Below, piece after piece: positions 47,176 to 57,692 of a stretch of DNA of 64,000 bases. A program made the translations under genes and the position numbers. The stretch comes from Clostridiaceae bacterium. Its GTDB lineage: Bacteria > Bacillota > Clostridia > DSM-8532. The notes below the pieces were generated by a model. That model searched no databases, had not been told where the DNA came from, and saw only the letters and a list, made by a program, of their open reading frames with translations. The stretch spans positions 1-64,000 of the forward strand of contig JAAYNA010000149.1 of the NCBI GenBank assembly GCA_012521105.1, given 5' to 3'. The stretch's first letter is position 1. Each line of letters starts with the position of its first letter.

Positions 47176-48228
47176 ATGCACATTAAAGAATGTGAGCGAA
47201 AAAACTTCATTTACGGCGAAATTTATAACGGCCGAATAAATATTTTAAAAACTAAAAAATACAGTCATGATAAGAGGCAGATTGTTTCTGCAGTTTTTAT
47301 ACTAATGCTTGCGATTCTCACAATACTTAGTTCCTGCAGTTCAAACAATGTGAAGGGCGAAAACGGTAAAATTACCGTTTATACAAGTTTCTATACAATG
47401 TATGATTTTGCTTTGAAAATAGGTGGAGACAAAGTAAATGTTGTGAATATGATTCCATCGGGAATGGAGCCCCACGATTGGGAGCCAAGCCCCAGGGATA
47501 TTGCAGGTTTATCAGGGGCAGATCTGTTTATTTATAACGGCGCGGGTATGGAAGGCTGGGTTGATAAAGTAATTGAATCAATAAAAAATGATAAACTTAT
47601 AACAGTGGAAACATCGAAGGGGATAAGCTTTGAAAAGCCGGTCCATGCTCATGTGCACCAGGAGGAGGCTTTAACACATGAAACTGAGCATTCCCATCAT
47701 AGCCATGAGTATGATCCGCATGTCTGGCTTAACCCGAGAAATGCCAAAATACAGATGAAGGTCATTAAAGACGCTCTGGTTCAGGTTGATCGTGAAAACA
47801 GCCGGTATTATGAAGAAAACTATAATTTCTATGCAGAAAAACTTGATGAGCTGGATAAAAAGTACAAAGAAGCTGCGGCCTCTTTTTCACGAAAAGAAAT
47901 AGTGGTTTCCCACGCAGCTTACGGGTATTTATGCAGTGCATACGGCCTGGAGCAGTTCTCATTAGAAGGTATTGCAAGTGATTCAGAGCCCACCCCTGCG
48001 AGGATGGCCGAGATTATTGATTTTATTAGGAAACATGATGTAAGTGTTATTTTTTTCGACGGTCTTTCCAGCTCCAAGGTTGTGGATGCAGTTGCCAGAG
48101 AAACAGGTGCACGTACTGCAGTTTTAAGTCCTCTTGAGGGAATAAGTGCCGAAGACTTAGAAGCAGGAAAAGATTATTTTTCAATAATGGAGGAAAACCT
48201 GAAGGCTTTGTCAGATGCCTTACGGTAG
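47176..48228 (+). CDS. znuA: metal ABC transporter substrate-binding lipoprotein (zinc, ZnuA-like)
   Basis: His-rich loop HAHVHQEEALTHETEHSHHSHEYDPHVWLNPRNAK; lipobox TILSSC. Confidence 0.93.
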   Translation: MHIKECERKNFIYGEIYNGRINILKTKKYSHDKRQIVSAVFILMLAILTILSSCSSNNVKGENGKITVYTSFYTMYDFALKIGGDKVNVVNMIPSGMEPHDWEPSPRDIAGLSGADLFIYNGAGMEGWVDKVIESIKNDKLITVETSKGISFEKPVHAHVHQEEALTHETEHSHHSHEYDPHVWLNPRNAKIQMKVIKDALVQVDRENSRYYEENYNFYAEKLDELDKKYKEAAASFSRKEIVVSHAAYGYLCSAYGLEQFSLEGIASDSEPTPARMAEIIDFIRKHDVSVIFFDGLSSSKVVDAVARETGARTAVLSPLEGISAEDLEAGKDYFSIMEENLKALSDALR

Positions 48229-48239
48229 GAGGAATATTT

Positions 48240-49025
48240 GTGCGTATACTGGAAGTTGAAAATCTGTCGTTTGCTTATCAGGGAAACTACATACTGAAGA
48301 ATGTGAATTTTACAGTTGATAAGGGTGATTTTGTTGGTATTATTGGCCCTAATGGTTCAGGTAAAAGCACTTTGGTCAAGCTCATGTTAAAAATTCTTAT
48401 CCCCGAAAAAGGGCAAATAAAAATTATTGGAAAAGATATTAAAAAATTTGACGGGTGGACAAAAATAGGGTATGTTTCGCAAAAAGCCGGTGAGTTTAAT
48501 GGCGATTTCCCGGCCACAGTAAACGAAATTGTTGGTGCCAGTTTGCTGGCTAATACCGGGATTTTCAGAAAAAAACCCGCAGATTATGATCAGAGGGTTT
48601 ATAGCGCTTTAAAAAAGGTTGGTATGCAGGACTATGGGAATAAATTAATTGGCAGGCTTTCAGGCGGGCAGCAGCAAAGAGTTTTTATTGCCCGGGTATT
48701 GATCACAGAGCCTGAAATAATGTTTCTGGACGAGCCCACTGTAGGAATTGATGCAAAATCAGAAGAAGCTTTGTATTGTCTTCTGGCAAGACTTAACGAG
48801 GAGCTGGGAATCACAATAATAATGGTAACTCATGATATAGGGGCAATTACAGTGCATGCAAATAAACTGATATGTCTGGGGGAAGCGGGTGTTACTGTGC
48901 ATGATATAAATGAGCCTGTGACCGATGAGTTTTTTTCCGAAGTTTACGGTTATCGGGTGCAAATTCACAGTCACCAATGCCAAAACTGCGGCCATATGAG
49001 GCAAGTGGGGTGTGAAGAATGCTAG
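48240..49025 (+). CDS. znuC: metal ABC transporter ATP-binding protein (ZnuC-like)
   Basis: GPNGSGKSTLVKLML, LSGGQQQRVFIARVL; C-terminal His/Cys tail HSHQCQNCGHMRQVGCEEC. Confidence 0.92.
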   Translation: MRILEVENLSFAYQGNYILKNVNFTVDKGDFVGIIGPNGSGKSTLVKLMLKILIPEKGQIKIIGKDIKKFDGWTKIGYVSQKAGEFNGDFPATVNEIVGASLLANTGIFRKKPADYDQRVYSALKKVGMQDYGNKLIGRLSGGQQQRVFIARVLITEPEIMFLDEPTVGIDAKSEEALYCLLARLNEELGITIIMVTHDIGAITVHANKLICLGEAGVTVHDINEPVTDEFFSEVYGYRVQIHSHQCQNCGHMRQVGCEEC

Positions 49026-49834
49026 AAATATTTCAATATGATTTTATGATCAACGCCTTTATTGCTGGCATTTTAATTGGAATTATAATTCCATGCATAG
49101 GTGTTGTTGTTGTACTGAGACGGCTGTCAATAATGGGGGATGCATTATCACATGTATCGCTTGCCGGGGTGGCTGCGGGGCTGGTTTTTGGCATTAACCC
49201 CATCCTAAGTGCGGTAGTCTTTGCTGTAGCCGCCTCTCTATGTATTGAGAGAATACGTAAATCAATACCTAAATACGGTGAAATCTCAACAGCGGTTATA
49301 ATGTCTGTTGGTATTGGCCTTGCAGCAATACTTTCGGGGTTTGTAACAAGCGCAAATTTTAACAGTTTTCTTTTTGGCAGCCTTGTGGCAATAAGCCCAT
49401 TTGAGAAATACCTGATAATAGTTCTTTCGATTGTTGTATTAGCGATATTTCTGTTACTTTACAGGGCTTTGTTTTACATCACTTTTGATGAGGAATCTGC
49501 ACGGCTTGCGGGCATACCCGTGCAGCCTGTAACCATTGTTTTCACTGTTTTAACTGCTGTAACAATTTCAATATCCTCACGAGTGGTAGGAGCGCTTGTG
49601 GTTTCTTCAATGATGGTACTTCCCGTTGCAGTTTCAATGCAGATAGCAAAAAGCTATAGGCAAACAGTTATTTTTTCAGTTTTATTTTCAATTTTTTATG
49701 TTGTGCTGGGCCTGTTCCTTTCGTTTTATTTTAACCTAAAACCAGGAGGAACAATTGTTATGACAGGTGTTATCTCGCTAATAATAACACTGTTAACTAA
49801 AAACTTTAAGGGAATAGTAAAAAAAGGAGCTTAG
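49019..49834 (+). CDS. znuB: metal ABC transporter permease (ZnuB-like)
   Basis: ABC-3 family TM protein, VVVLRRLSIMGDALSHVSLAGVA. Confidence 0.92.
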   Translation: MLEIFQYDFMINAFIAGILIGIIIPCIGVVVVLRRLSIMGDALSHVSLAGVAAGLVFGINPILSAVVFAVAASLCIERIRKSIPKYGEISTAVIMSVGIGLAAILSGFVTSANFNSFLFGSLVAISPFEKYLIIVLSIVVLAIFLLLYRALFYITFDEESARLAGIPVQPVTIVFTVLTAVTISISSRVVGALVVSSMMVLPVAVSMQIAKSYRQTVIFSVLFSIFYVVLGLFLSFYFNLKPGGTIVMTGVISLIITLLTKNFKGIVKKGA

Positions 49835-49847
49835 CTTATATAAGGGG

Positions 49848-50282
49848 ATGATTGAATTGTCGGAAAAGGATGTTTACCGCAACATACTGGCACAGAAAGG
49901 GCTAAGAGTTACCGATGTCAGAATTAAAGTTCTTAAGATACTGGATGATGCGGAAATCCCGATGACTGTTGAGGAGGTATTTACCGGTTTACGAAGTATG
50001 CTGTCATCTGTAAATCTTTCAACGGTATACAGGACCATGGAAGCTTTTATAAAAAATGGGCTGATTATAAAAACCACATTGCTGGATGATAATAAATCCC
50101 GGTACGAATATAAAAGAACGGAGCATAAACACCATCTTGTATGCGCCGGCTGCAACCGGATGGTATCCATAGAAGATTGCCCAATAGACGATAAATATGC
50201 AAAAGCAATGTGCAGTAAGCAGGGTTTTGAATTAACAGGACATAGACTTGAAATATACGGCTTATGCCCTGATTGTAAATGA
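49848..50282 (+). CDS. Fur-family transcriptional regulator (probable Zur)
   Basis: winged helix VNLSTVYRTMEAFIKNGLI; KHHLVCAGCNRMVSIEDCP; C-terminal CPDCK; linked to znu genes. Confidence 0.9.
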   Translation: MIELSEKDVYRNILAQKGLRVTDVRIKVLKILDDAEIPMTVEEVFTGLRSMLSSVNLSTVYRTMEAFIKNGLIIKTTLLDDNKSRYEYKRTEHKHHLVCAGCNRMVSIEDCPIDDKYAKAMCSKQGFELTGHRLEIYGLCPDCK

Positions 50283-50956: not shown

Positions 50957-52735
50957 TTATCTGAACAGATTCAGCTTTATCTTTCTGTTTCTTACAAAAT
51001 ACCTCCATTGCCTCATCAGGTATGGCATTAAATAATAGTCCACACCAAAGGATTTTCCCGCATCCTGGAACATGGCTATTTGGGCAGGGATTAACCAATA
51101 GGTTTCAGGGTACATTCCTGTGGATAAAAGAAAATTAACATTCAGGCCAAGCCCCACAACAGCAGCGGGAATGGTGAAGGTCCCGGTAATAAATGCGAGC
51201 CCTAAACCTATTTCGGCTATTACAATCAGGTACTGGAAAAGCATTGGGTATGGAAGGATAAAGGTTTCAGTAACCCATTCGTACCATAAGGGAGTATTTT
51301 CCGTAACTATACGGAATACTTTCTGGCCTTCCTCTGTCAGGGAGGCGGTTGCCTGGGCATCGGGTGCTCTTCCGGCAAGCATCTCAATTACAAACCATCC
51401 GTCCCATGCCTTCTTCAGCCCTTCCATAAGCCAGTAATAGCCGATAAAGATTCTTAACGGAACAAGCCACACCAGCATGGTCTTTTTAGTAATAAAGGCT
51501 TCAAGTAATGGCTTGTCCTGACGTTTGTACAGGAATTCGTATTTCAGATAACTGAAAACTAGCTCAAAACCGCCAATTCCAAAATAATAATGCATATTAA
51601 CAAGGTGTTTCATAATAATTGCAAAAAGCCTGTTAAGGGAAACCCCCATAATTTCAGCAACGGCAAAGAAACTGCCCACCGACACCATTATACCGTGGTA
51701 TTTTGGTTCAAGCTTCTTCTTCTCTTTCCCACGGACAGAATTAAGAATATTATTTGCCGCAGTCTTTCCGGTTTGTAAAGCTGTTTCAACCATTGCAGGC
51801 AGTGCATGGCCTTCGTGATTAAACAGTGCTATGTCACCTATAGCATATACGTTATCAAAACCTTTAACCGAAGTGTATTCATCCACTTCAATGCGGCAAG
51901 CCTCCCCTTTTGGAAGGTCCATTGTACTAGTCACATTACAGGCTTTAACACCTGCAGTCCATATAACTGTGGAAGCATTAATACTGTCACCGTTTTCAAA
52001 CTGCAATTTATCGCCATCAAGGCTGGTTATAGTAGTATTTGTCCTGACATCTACTTTAAGCTTGTTTTGAAGATATCTTGTTGCCTTCCTGCGGTTTTTT
52101 TCTTTCATTATATGCAGTATATCCGGTAGTGCTTCAATAAGGTGAAGGCTTACTTCGGACCTGTCTATTTCATACTCACGGCATAAGGATTTAACCCATA
52201 CAGCAATTTCGCCTATGGCTTCAACCCCTGTAAAACCGCCGCCACCCACCACAATTGTTAAAAGTTTCTTCTTAAGTTCCGGATCTTCTTCCTGGGAAGC
52301 TTTTAAAAAGCAATCTCTTATATGGTCACGGATTCGTATGGCATCATCAAGGGACCAAAGGGGAAAGGAATTCTCCTTCATGCCTGGTATACCATAGTAG
52401 TTTGGGCTGCTTCCCGCAGCAATAATTAAATAATCGTAGCAATACTCGCATCTGTCTGAGGAAACCTTTTTATGTTCAAAGTCAAAGTTTTTTATTTCAT
52501 CCTGTATTACACGAACATCGGTATAGCGAAAAATTTTATAGAGGGGAACGGTAACAGTTTCATCATCAACCCGGTTTCCTGCTACCTCGTGAAGTTCGGT
52601 TAAGAATGTATGATACGGATTCTTATCAATAAGTGTTATTTCGATATCGTCGCCTTTTTTCTTTTTTTTGTGTAAAGTCAAAGCAGCCTCAACACCTGCA
52701 TACCCTGCTCCAATGACAACAACCTTGTAAGACAT
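50957..52735 (-). CDS. type II NADH dehydrogenase with C-terminal DoxX-like membrane domain (Ndh2/EET-type)
   Basis: VVIGAGYAGVEAAL FAD motif, VVGGGGFTGVEAIGE, VYAIGDIALF; about 190-residue hydrophobic C-terminal extension beyond NDH-2 core. Confidence 0.9.
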   Translation of the reverse strand: MSYKVVVIGAGYAGVEAALTLHKKKKKGDDIEITLIDKNPYHTFLTELHEVAGNRVDDETVTVPLYKIFRYTDVRVIQDEIKNFDFEHKKVSSDRCEYCYDYLIIAAGSSPNYYGIPGMKENSFPLWSLDDAIRIRDHIRDCFLKASQEEDPELKKKLLTIVVGGGGFTGVEAIGEIAVWVKSLCREYEIDRSEVSLHLIEALPDILHIMKEKNRRKATRYLQNKLKVDVRTNTTITSLDGDKLQFENGDSINASTVIWTAGVKACNVTSTMDLPKGEACRIEVDEYTSVKGFDNVYAIGDIALFNHEGHALPAMVETALQTGKTAANNILNSVRGKEKKKLEPKYHGIMVSVGSFFAVAEIMGVSLNRLFAIIMKHLVNMHYYFGIGGFELVFSYLKYEFLYKRQDKPLLEAFITKKTMLVWLVPLRIFIGYYWLMEGLKKAWDGWFVIEMLAGRAPDAQATASLTEEGQKVFRIVTENTPLWYEWVTETFILPYPMLFQYLIVIAEIGLGLAFITGTFTIPAAVVGLGLNVNFLLSTGMYPETYWLIPAQIAMFQDAGKSFGVDYYLMPYLMRQWRYFVRNRKIKLNLFR

Positions 52736-52831
52736 CCGGACACCTCCAATATGTCACCACTTCAATAGGTGGTCAGTAAAGTCACTTATATGTTTACCAC
52801 CTATTTATGAAATATATCAAAAACTATCGAA

Positions 52832-52899
52832 GTCAATAATTGACTTATCAATGGCGACATGTATTATAATGCTATTATATTCAATAATATATTATTGAA
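52832..52899 (+). promoter_or_regulatory. candidate promoter and palindromic operator for FMN-binding lipoprotein gene
   Basis: TTGACT-16-TATTAT followed by 20-nt perfect palindrome TTCAATAATATATTATTGAA (52880-52899). Confidence 0.55.
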
Positions 52900-52964
52900 C
52901 AATATACTTTATTATTTTCTGGTTTTGTTCTATCCTTTTTGGGTATAACATAAAATTATAATAT

Positions 52965-53393
52965 TTGTTAATAGGAGTGATGGCGTTGAAAAAACTTACT
53001 ATTTCTATAGTCCTGGTTTTATTGGTTGTTGCATTAACTGCATGTGGAGCAAAACTGGAAGACGGAAACTATGAAGGTCAAAGCACACCCGACAGCCGTG
53101 GTGCATACGGAGTTGTTAGCATCGAAGTAAAGGACGGAAAAATTGCATCTGCTGAATTTTTACAGTATAATGCAGATGGAACTTTAAAGGATGAATCATA
53201 TGGTAAAGAGTCCGGGGAGGAAAACTATAAAAAGGCTCAGGATGCGCTGGAGTATTCCAAACAATATGCAGAAAAACTTGTGGAAACCCAAAAAGTAGAC
53301 AAGGTTGATGCAATAACCGGTGCAACAAGCTCATGGAAACAATTTCAGGAAGCTGCAAAAGATGCATTGGCAAAGGCTAAAGGGAAAAGATAA
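52965..53393 (+). CDS. FMN-binding domain lipoprotein (PplA-like, single domain)
   Basis: lipobox VVALTAC; flavinylation-type motif DAITGATSS; GxYG/VSIEVKDGKI FMN_bind pattern. Confidence 0.88.
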   Translation: MLIGVMALKKLTISIVLVLLVVALTACGAKLEDGNYEGQSTPDSRGAYGVVSIEVKDGKIASAEFLQYNADGTLKDESYGKESGEENYKKAQDALEYSKQYAEKLVETQKVDKVDAITGATSSWKQFQEAAKDALAKAKGKR

Positions 53394-53468
53394 TTTAATA
53401 TTGTGCAATGTAAGGAGGAGGCTGTTTCGGCCATTGCACAATGTTAGCATCAACAAGGTTAGCAAGTT

Positions 53469-53494
53469 AAAGCCCTTTCAGGGCTTTTCTTTTT
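53469..53494 (+). terminator. Rho-independent terminator
   Basis: AAAGCCCT ttc AGGGCTTTT CTTTTT. Confidence 0.85.
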
Positions 53495-53544
53495 AAAAAC
53501 CTTAAGGATAAAAAAATAAATAACCTGTGATAAGGAGAACGCCG

Positions 53545-54501
53545 ATGCTATGGGATAATTACCCTGAGATAAAGAGAAAACTGAGAAAAGTTGAAACTAT
53601 AATTGAGCAAAACCTTAAATGCAGAAATAAACCCCTTGAAGAACTTTTGCAAACTCTTTTGAAGGGCGGTAAAAGACTGAGACCTGCTTTCAGCATACTT
53701 TCAGCGGGTTTTGGGAAGCAGCAGAATGATAAAATATATGATGCTGCAGCAGGTATTGAAATTCTTCACATGGCAACCCTGGTGCATGACGATATCATTG
53801 ATGAAGCCGGTATGAGGCGCGGAAAACCTACAATCAACAGCGTGTACGGTGACAAAATGTCTGTTTATGTGGGCGATTACCTTTTGTCACGGTCGGTACT
53901 TTTGCTGTCAAGAACACTGCCCGAGGACAGGCTTGAAAAGATTGCAAGGGCTTTAAAATCTATATGTGAAGCCGAAATTGAGCAGTTTTTCAGTCGGTTT
54001 AATCTGGACGTATCCCCTGTTACCTATTTAAAAAGGATTGGCAGAAAAACTTCGGCACTATTTGCCTTTTCATGTGGGGAAGGCGCTTTTCTTTCGGGGT
54101 GCGATGAAAATTCTCAGAAAAACCTTATAAAGTTCGGATTTTATTTTGGTATGGCCTTTCAAATGTATGATGATATATTGGATCTGGTAGGGGATACTAA
54201 AGAAACAGGCAAGCCAAAAGGAAACGATATTAAAGAAGGGATAATCACCATACCCTTTATCCTGGCTTTAAGAAAAAATGCCACTTTTGCTAAAAATGCC
54301 CGTAAGATAATGTCGGCTGAAACAATAAAAACTGCCGATATTAAAAAAATAATAGATGAGATCATCAGTTTGGGAGGCATAGACGATACCCGTGCCTGGA
54401 TTGACCGTTATCTTCAAAAAGCTCATACAATGCTTGAACCTTTACCCGATATCCGAGAAAAGGAAATATTTCATGATATTATGTTAACCTTGGAGAAGTA
54501 A
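53545..54501 (+). CDS. polyprenyl (probably heptaprenyl-type) diphosphate synthase
   Basis: LLKGGKRLRP, LVHDDIIDEAGMRRGKPT and YDDILDLVGDTKETGKPKGNDIKEG aspartate-rich motifs. Confidence 0.93.
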   Translation: MLWDNYPEIKRKLRKVETIIEQNLKCRNKPLEELLQTLLKGGKRLRPAFSILSAGFGKQQNDKIYDAAAGIEILHMATLVHDDIIDEAGMRRGKPTINSVYGDKMSVYVGDYLLSRSVLLLSRTLPEDRLEKIARALKSICEAEIEQFFSRFNLDVSPVTYLKRIGRKTSALFAFSCGEGAFLSGCDENSQKNLIKFGFYFGMAFQMYDDILDLVGDTKETGKPKGNDIKEGIITIPFILALRKNATFAKNARKIMSAETIKTADIKKIIDEIISLGGIDDTRAWIDRYLQKAHTMLEPLPDIREKEIFHDIMLTLEK

Positions 54502-57399: not shown

Positions 57400-57559
57400 C
57401 CTATAAATTTTCTGCATTGCACAATATCTACACAGCCTTTTCATTTCCCTGCTATTAACTGAACTGTGTCGCATAACTTAAAATCTTGATTTCCAACCAA
57501 TGGTATGCTATTATATAAACAGCAGATATAATTTTACAACAATAATAAATATTGTTTTC

Positions 57560-57692
57560 CTTATCAAGAGAGGTGGAGGGATCGGGCCCTATGAAACCCG
57601 GCAACCGGCATTTGCACGGTGCCAATTCCTGCAGGATTAATCCTGAGAGATGAGGAGTCAGGCAAATCTCTTCATTGAAGAGATTTTTCTTT
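57560..57692 (+). promoter_or_regulatory. SAM-I (S-box) riboswitch with terminator upstream of metK
   Basis: CTTATCAAGAGAGGTGGAGGGATCGGGCCCTATGAAACCCGGCAACC...GGTGCCAATTCCTGC...GAGAGATGAGGAG; terminator AATCTCTTCATTGAAGAGATTTTTCTTTT. Confidence 0.96.

Follow-up and report, generated by a model that had tools for sequence, protein, structure and literature searches.

Flavin-based extracellular electron transfer (FLEET) in Listeria monocytogenes is encoded by a single 8.5-kb locus comprising the genes ndh2, pplA, eetA, eetB, dmkA, dmkB, fmnA, and fmnB, of which eetB was described to be required for flavin export and for the flavinylation of PplA (PMC9973259). FLEET genes are also known from Lactiplantibacillus plantarum, which lacks a complete DHNA pathway and performs extracellular electron transfer (EET) with DHNA supplied from outside (PMC8837199, PMC10746273); this DHNA-dependent EET needs ndh2 and pplA but neither dmkA nor dmkB (PMC9888254). 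Clusters with the same kinds of genes were found in the Clostridia Thermoanaerobacter wiegelii (L029), Ruminiclostridium (L007-L011), Acetivibrio straminisolvens (L003), and Caldicoprobacter (L013), the cluster of T. wiegelii being a single one with the gene order ndh2-eetA-eetB-dmkB-apbE-dmkA-pplA and a single-domain PplA. Flavinylation by ApbE and EetB also concerns RnfG of the Rnf complex, which transfers electrons between ferredoxin and NAD and operates without Ndh2, quinone, and PplA; within 572 Clostridia genomes, eetB was reported to colocalize with Rnf (PMC9973259).

The locus analyzed here is located at positions 50957-54501 of a 64,000-nucleotide stretch of DNA from a Clostridiaceae bacterium (hereafter, the window). 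Compared to Listeria, homologues of ndh2, pplA, eetA, eetB, dmkA, dmkB, and fmnB were recognized in this genome by family or best structural match, but they are distributed over at least three loci, the PplA-like protein has a single FMN_bind domain compared with two in the PplA model, and MenB and MenD were not found. The organism resembles L. plantarum in that its FLEET genes are not accompanied by a complete DHNA pathway; however, the two belong to the same phylum without being close kin, L. plantarum carries one FLEET locus, and Rnf is additionally encoded here. In the clostridial clusters, eetA-eetB-dmkB (mostly together with apbE) adjoin ndh2, whereas this grouping is split up in the genus of the window.

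The three-gene locus and its products

The following features were assigned to the locus:

50957-52735, minus strand: ndh2, encoding a FLEET-type Ndh2, i.e., a type II NADH dehydrogenase of 592 aa with a DoxX/DoxD-like membrane C-terminus
52736-52979, strand not applicable: divergent intergenic region, candidate operator/promoter
52980-53393, plus strand: pplA-like lipoprotein gene (one FMN_bind domain, lipobox Cys22, DAITGATSS)
53469-53487, plus strand: terminator-like hairpin AAAGCCCTTTCAGGGCTTT with a T-rich tail, separating pplA from dmkB
53545-54501, plus strand: dmkB-like trans-polyprenyl diphosphate synthase gene (DDIID, DDILD; PF00348)

All three open reading frames are intact and belong to the expected families, and the observation made from the sequence was borne out. 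Two starts were corrected, since the ATG at 52980 (RBS AGGAG) is the better one for the lipoprotein of 137 aa and the ATG at 53545, with a plausible ribosome-binding site, for the synthase of 318 aa. The genes ndh2 and pplA are divergently oriented with a gap of 244 bases, harboring a 10-bp inverted repeat (AATAGGTGGT/ACCACCTATT, 52764-52805) and, upstream of ndh2, the block AGGTGGTAAACATAT (52788-52802, minus strand), which is identical in the three ndh2-bearing members of the genus. Block and repeat represent a candidate operator/promoter. The idea that the dispersed genes share an operator was rejected, as the block occurs upstream of ndh2 alone and is absent upstream of dmkA, eetA, and apbE. 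Because of the hairpin at 53469-53487, pplA and dmkB may not share one transcript, and an operon is not assured. No Rfam match was obtained at the locus, a weak 'sar' match at 53465-53516 being below the gathering score.

The locus is flanked by genes for VanZ, a Fur-family regulator, a zinc ABC transporter, and SpoIIE-like and YyaC-like proteins. The adjoining zinc/metal ABC transporter (substrate-binding protein, ATPase, and permease), followed by the Fur-family regulator (47176-50282, plus strand), represents a conserved neighborhood in the genus that probably has no connection to EET. An ordinary SAM riboswitch (57558-57656, plus strand; 90.6 bits) precedes metK.

As originally predicted, ndh2 encodes a type II NADH dehydrogenase with a hydrophobic C-terminal extension. 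The protein matched Pyr_redox_2 (E=2.4e-42), and residues ~1-395 correspond to NDH-2 by sequence as well as by predicted fold, with target-normalized TM-scores of 0.92-0.95 over ~400 residues to PDB structures of NDH-2 from Bacillus subtilis, Caldalkalibacillus, and Staphylococcus aureus. The last ~195 residues form mostly hydrophobic helices that match DoxX and DoxD weakly, in both cases just below the Pfam cut-offs (DoxX 22.9 bits vs 23.6), while DoxD exceeds its cut-off in the homologue of A. straminisolvens. Canonical NDH-2 enzymes comprise ~400 aa, carry the quinone motif AQxAxQ, and lack an extra membrane domain; the window protein differs in its length of 592 aa, its motif VETALQ, and its position on a separate branch. 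In the Ndh2 tree (50 rows chosen for their resemblance to the window protein, with three partial chains as the canonical ones, and Listeria Ndh2 not included), the window protein was nested (97/96) among Ndh2s encoded beside eetAB, with Acetivibrio/Ruminiclostridium proteins as sister, the Ndh2s of A. straminisolvens and Ruminiclostridium being the nearest outside the genus. The three canonical NDH-2s formed a separate group (100/100) and retain AQ, which is replaced by VE in all 47 non-canonical rows, including the window protein. The phylogeny, named beforehand as a test able to refute the prediction, thus placed the window Ndh2 on the FLEET side, in line with its fold and its DoxX/DoxD-like C-terminus.

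The lipoprotein possesses the lipobox LTAC with Cys22, one FMN_bind domain (PF04205, E=2.6e-9), and the flavinylation motif DAITGATSS, in which Thr116 is the expected FMN site; its predicted model matched the FMN_bind structures 3o6u and 2kzx. Among the NCBIfam models, PplA (NF041941, 302 positions) scored best, with 58 bits and therefore below the cut-off of 325. These features agree with the single-domain FMN-binding lipoprotein that had been proposed. The single domain is no sign of decay, because single-domain relatives reside in the fuller clusters of T. wiegelii and Caldicoprobacter.

In FLEET-type clusters of other family members and of Ruminiclostridium, the place next to apbE in which one would look for PplA is occupied by genes of one lipoprotein family, whose proteins contain either a single repeat or two (one-repeat form L122:2624-3124, L124:811-1311, L125:2619-3125, and L127:759-1292; two-repeat form L059:5538-6617, L061:1562-2638, and L062:4476-5564). 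Its members matched neither FMN_bind nor the motif D..[ST]GA[TS] and have no relative of solved structure; this family is a possible unrecognized PplA substitute.

The third gene was correctly assigned to the polyprenyl diphosphate synthases, as both DDxxD motifs (DDIID and DDILD) and PF00348 (E=1.8e-63) were found. It is a putative orthologue of the cluster DmkBs, relative to which a star-like tree with long branches did not place it. Two polyprenyl synthases were detected in the genome, of which this is the long-chain type; the second is IspA-like and located near the xse and dxs genes.

FLEET genes elsewhere in the genome

In the genome (3.38 Mb, 194 contigs, 98.6% complete), the searches covered named families and selected stretches. 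The original prediction regarded the locus as a minimal or reduced module, with apbE/fmnB, eetAB, and dmkA missing from the window, and offered as an alternative that the rest lies elsewhere in the genome. The missing genes were indeed located on other contigs; the alternative was therefore confirmed, and the reduced three-gene module was rejected. A single pair of adjacent genes for EetA (PF07009, 2.3e-27) and EetB (PF07456, 1.2e-40) is present on contig C19. One ApbE is encoded (305 bits), and its best PDB match, 7esa (289 bits), is named only FAD:protein FMN transferase; we take this entry, the structure treated in PMC8906456, to be Listeria FmnB. Two UbiA proteins were detected, of which the MenA-type prenyltransferase on C50, assigned to DmkA, passed two NCBIfam cut-offs (362 against 289 and 321.8 against 316). 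The second one, on C134, was rejected as DmkA, as it represents a decaprenyl-phosphate phosphoribosyltransferase by NCBIfam cut-offs. Two FMN_bind proteins occur in the genome, namely the window lipoprotein and RnfG of rnfCDGEAB.

The genome thereby encodes a FLEET-type Ndh2, a PplA-like lipoprotein, an FmnB-like ApbE, EetA and EetB, as well as DmkA and a DmkB-like synthase, from which demethylmenaquinone synthesis is predicted. Judged by these components, the gene set appears complete, chromosomally dispersed, and equipped with a single-flavin PplA, and electron export is predicted from it. It speaks against the FLEET reading that PplA, DmkB, EetAB, and ApbE are not encoded in one operon; a single cluster is no prerequisite for function. 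The closed same-genus genome G011 (2.97 Mb) features three loci, dmkA at 0.27 Mb, apbE|eetA-eetB at 0.82 Mb, and ndh2|pplA-dmkB at 2.79 Mb. In DTU070, a sugar ABC transporter and a two-component system lie between apbE and eetAB on one contig, and the same spacing is inferred for the window genome from the ends of C17 and C19.

Conservation and decay among relatives

Relative to two congeners, dN/dS values ranged between 0.05 and 0.17 for ndh2, pplA, dmkB, dmkA, eetB, and apbE, showing that these six genes are under purifying selection; ndh2, with 0.054-0.058, was close to metK (0.043). ApbE was encoded in 21 of the 21 genomes, and ndh2 and dmkA were both present in 18, both absent in two, and represented by remnants in one, although these counts are phylogenetically non-independent and absences from draft genomes may be gaps. 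The adjacency of ndh2, pplA, and dmkB is kept in three congeners at 82-86% Ndh2 identity, and similar neighborhoods exist in C. homopropionicum, Caldicoprobacter, and T. wiegelii. As similar clusters were found in many of the Clostridia examined, the expectation that such a locus would be notable in this class was too strong.

These data bear on the question of whether the genes belong together at all. The lipoprotein, ApbE, and EetAB could be part of the flavinylation economy of Rnf, with Ndh2 and the polyprenyl synthase an unrelated chance pair. Such an origin would agree with the Rnf operon including RnfG, with the colocalization of eetB and Rnf mentioned above, and with the congener G013, which kept apbE|eetAB in the absence of ndh2 and dmkA. 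It is nevertheless quite improbable, given the conserved adjacency in the three congeners, the similar neighborhoods in the three other taxa, and the fact that dmkA tracks ndh2 in presence and absence.

Even less probable, and indeed hardly credible, is a vestigial module on its way out since DHNA is no longer made: in the species of the window every gene has an open frame and evolves under purifying selection, with ndh2 near metK. Losses of the kind such a process would leave are visible in relatives, as G013 is devoid of ndh2 and dmkA, and in the cousin G017/L032 the flavin domain of ndh2 is lost, dmkB is split, and the C-terminus of dmkA is out of frame.

In this cousin (L032:9809-10330 and L088:1534-2055), ndh2 consists of the C-terminal membrane part alone (80% identical), dmkB is divided between two frames, and dmkA leaves its frame toward the C-terminus, which represents an apparent decay of the FLEET pathway unless an assembly error is involved. 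In the complete genome of T. wiegelii, the ndh2 sequence (L029:9977-11775) is divided between ORFs of 167 and 437 aa, which overlap and lie in different frames.

The Ndh2 tree, the gene content, and the comparison with relatives support FLEET membership, and the locus appears to be a member of this known kind, with export activity as a predicted function. That it represents the electron-transfer core of a FLEET-type pathway with chromosomally dispersed genes is, on the basis of sequence comparison, the interpretation we consider probable.

Quinone supply and proposed working of the pathway

The original prediction would have failed if ApbE or a DHNA/DMK pathway had been missing from the genome. 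ApbE and the genes for DMK prenylation are present; on the other hand, MenB, MenD, and MqnC yielded no match above the family cut-offs in the organism's own genome with positive controls, and MenD passed in none of the 21 genomes, including the closed one. Matches below the thresholds would fit cross-reaction with enzymes of related families. On the basis of these three markers, it is unlikely that DHNA is made de novo, and the synthesis appears to be absent, which differs from the Listeria form. The missing markers do not refute FLEET, because L. plantarum runs it on external DHNA. DHNA or another naphthoquinone would accordingly have to be obtained from outside, as in L. plantarum, or via an undescribed route, and quinone auxotrophy with a precursor provided by neighbors is predicted from the gene content.

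In the proposed pathway, Ndh2 would oxidize NADH and reduce a membrane naphthoquinone (demethylmenaquinone), its DoxX/DoxD-like C-terminus being a putative part of the membrane/quinone side. DmkB would provide the prenyl chain, which DmkA, encoded on another contig, would join to DHNA taken from other organisms rather than made by the cell. FAD would be exported by EetB with EetA and serve ApbE/FmnB as the donor of FMN, which would become covalently bound to the PplA-like lipoprotein at Thr116. From this lipoprotein, electrons could pass to an extracellular acceptor, e.g., Fe(III), humics, or a shuttle. Each biochemical step, the acceptor, and DHNA uptake are inferred. The flavinylation of RnfG presumably relies on the same single ApbE and probably on EetAB; apbE-eetAB would then also serve Rnf, which is probably why they persist in G013 without ndh2 and dmkA.

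Alternatively, the quinol formed by Ndh2 could be consumed by one dedicated reductase outside the cytosol or in the detoxification of O2/peroxide, PplA then donating electrons to a particular partner protein. In favor of this alternative, proteins flavinylated by ApbE take part in various extracytosolic redox systems (PMC8238504), and iron-reduction data for this genus were not found. Literature on electron transfer in Clostridium stercorarium and on quinones in cellulolytic thermophilic clostridia yielded nothing useful. However, the genes adjoining the locus include no extracytosolic reductase, and among lactic acid bacteria, iron was reduced, under the conditions tested, only by species with both ndh2 and pplA (PMC8837199). 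We consider this alternative unlikely and electron export by the dispersed FLEET-type pathway the better reading.

The scattering of FLEET genes, with the pathway kept, implies that cluster-based surveys will miss members. The location of apbE-eetAB apart from ndh2, dmkA, pplA, and dmkB suggests that one flavin-export module may be shared by Rnf and EET, and it is predicted that a fermentative clostridium with Rnf would gain an outlet for NADH only when a neighbor supplies DHNA. Tentatively, and with the balance slightly against it, this family of Clostridia may maintain a complete, selected, quinone-prenylating FLEET system without either of the known naphthoquinone routes. If true, these Clostridia would depend obligately on quinones passed on by other members of anaerobic communities, or they would make a DHNA-like head group by a route not yet described.
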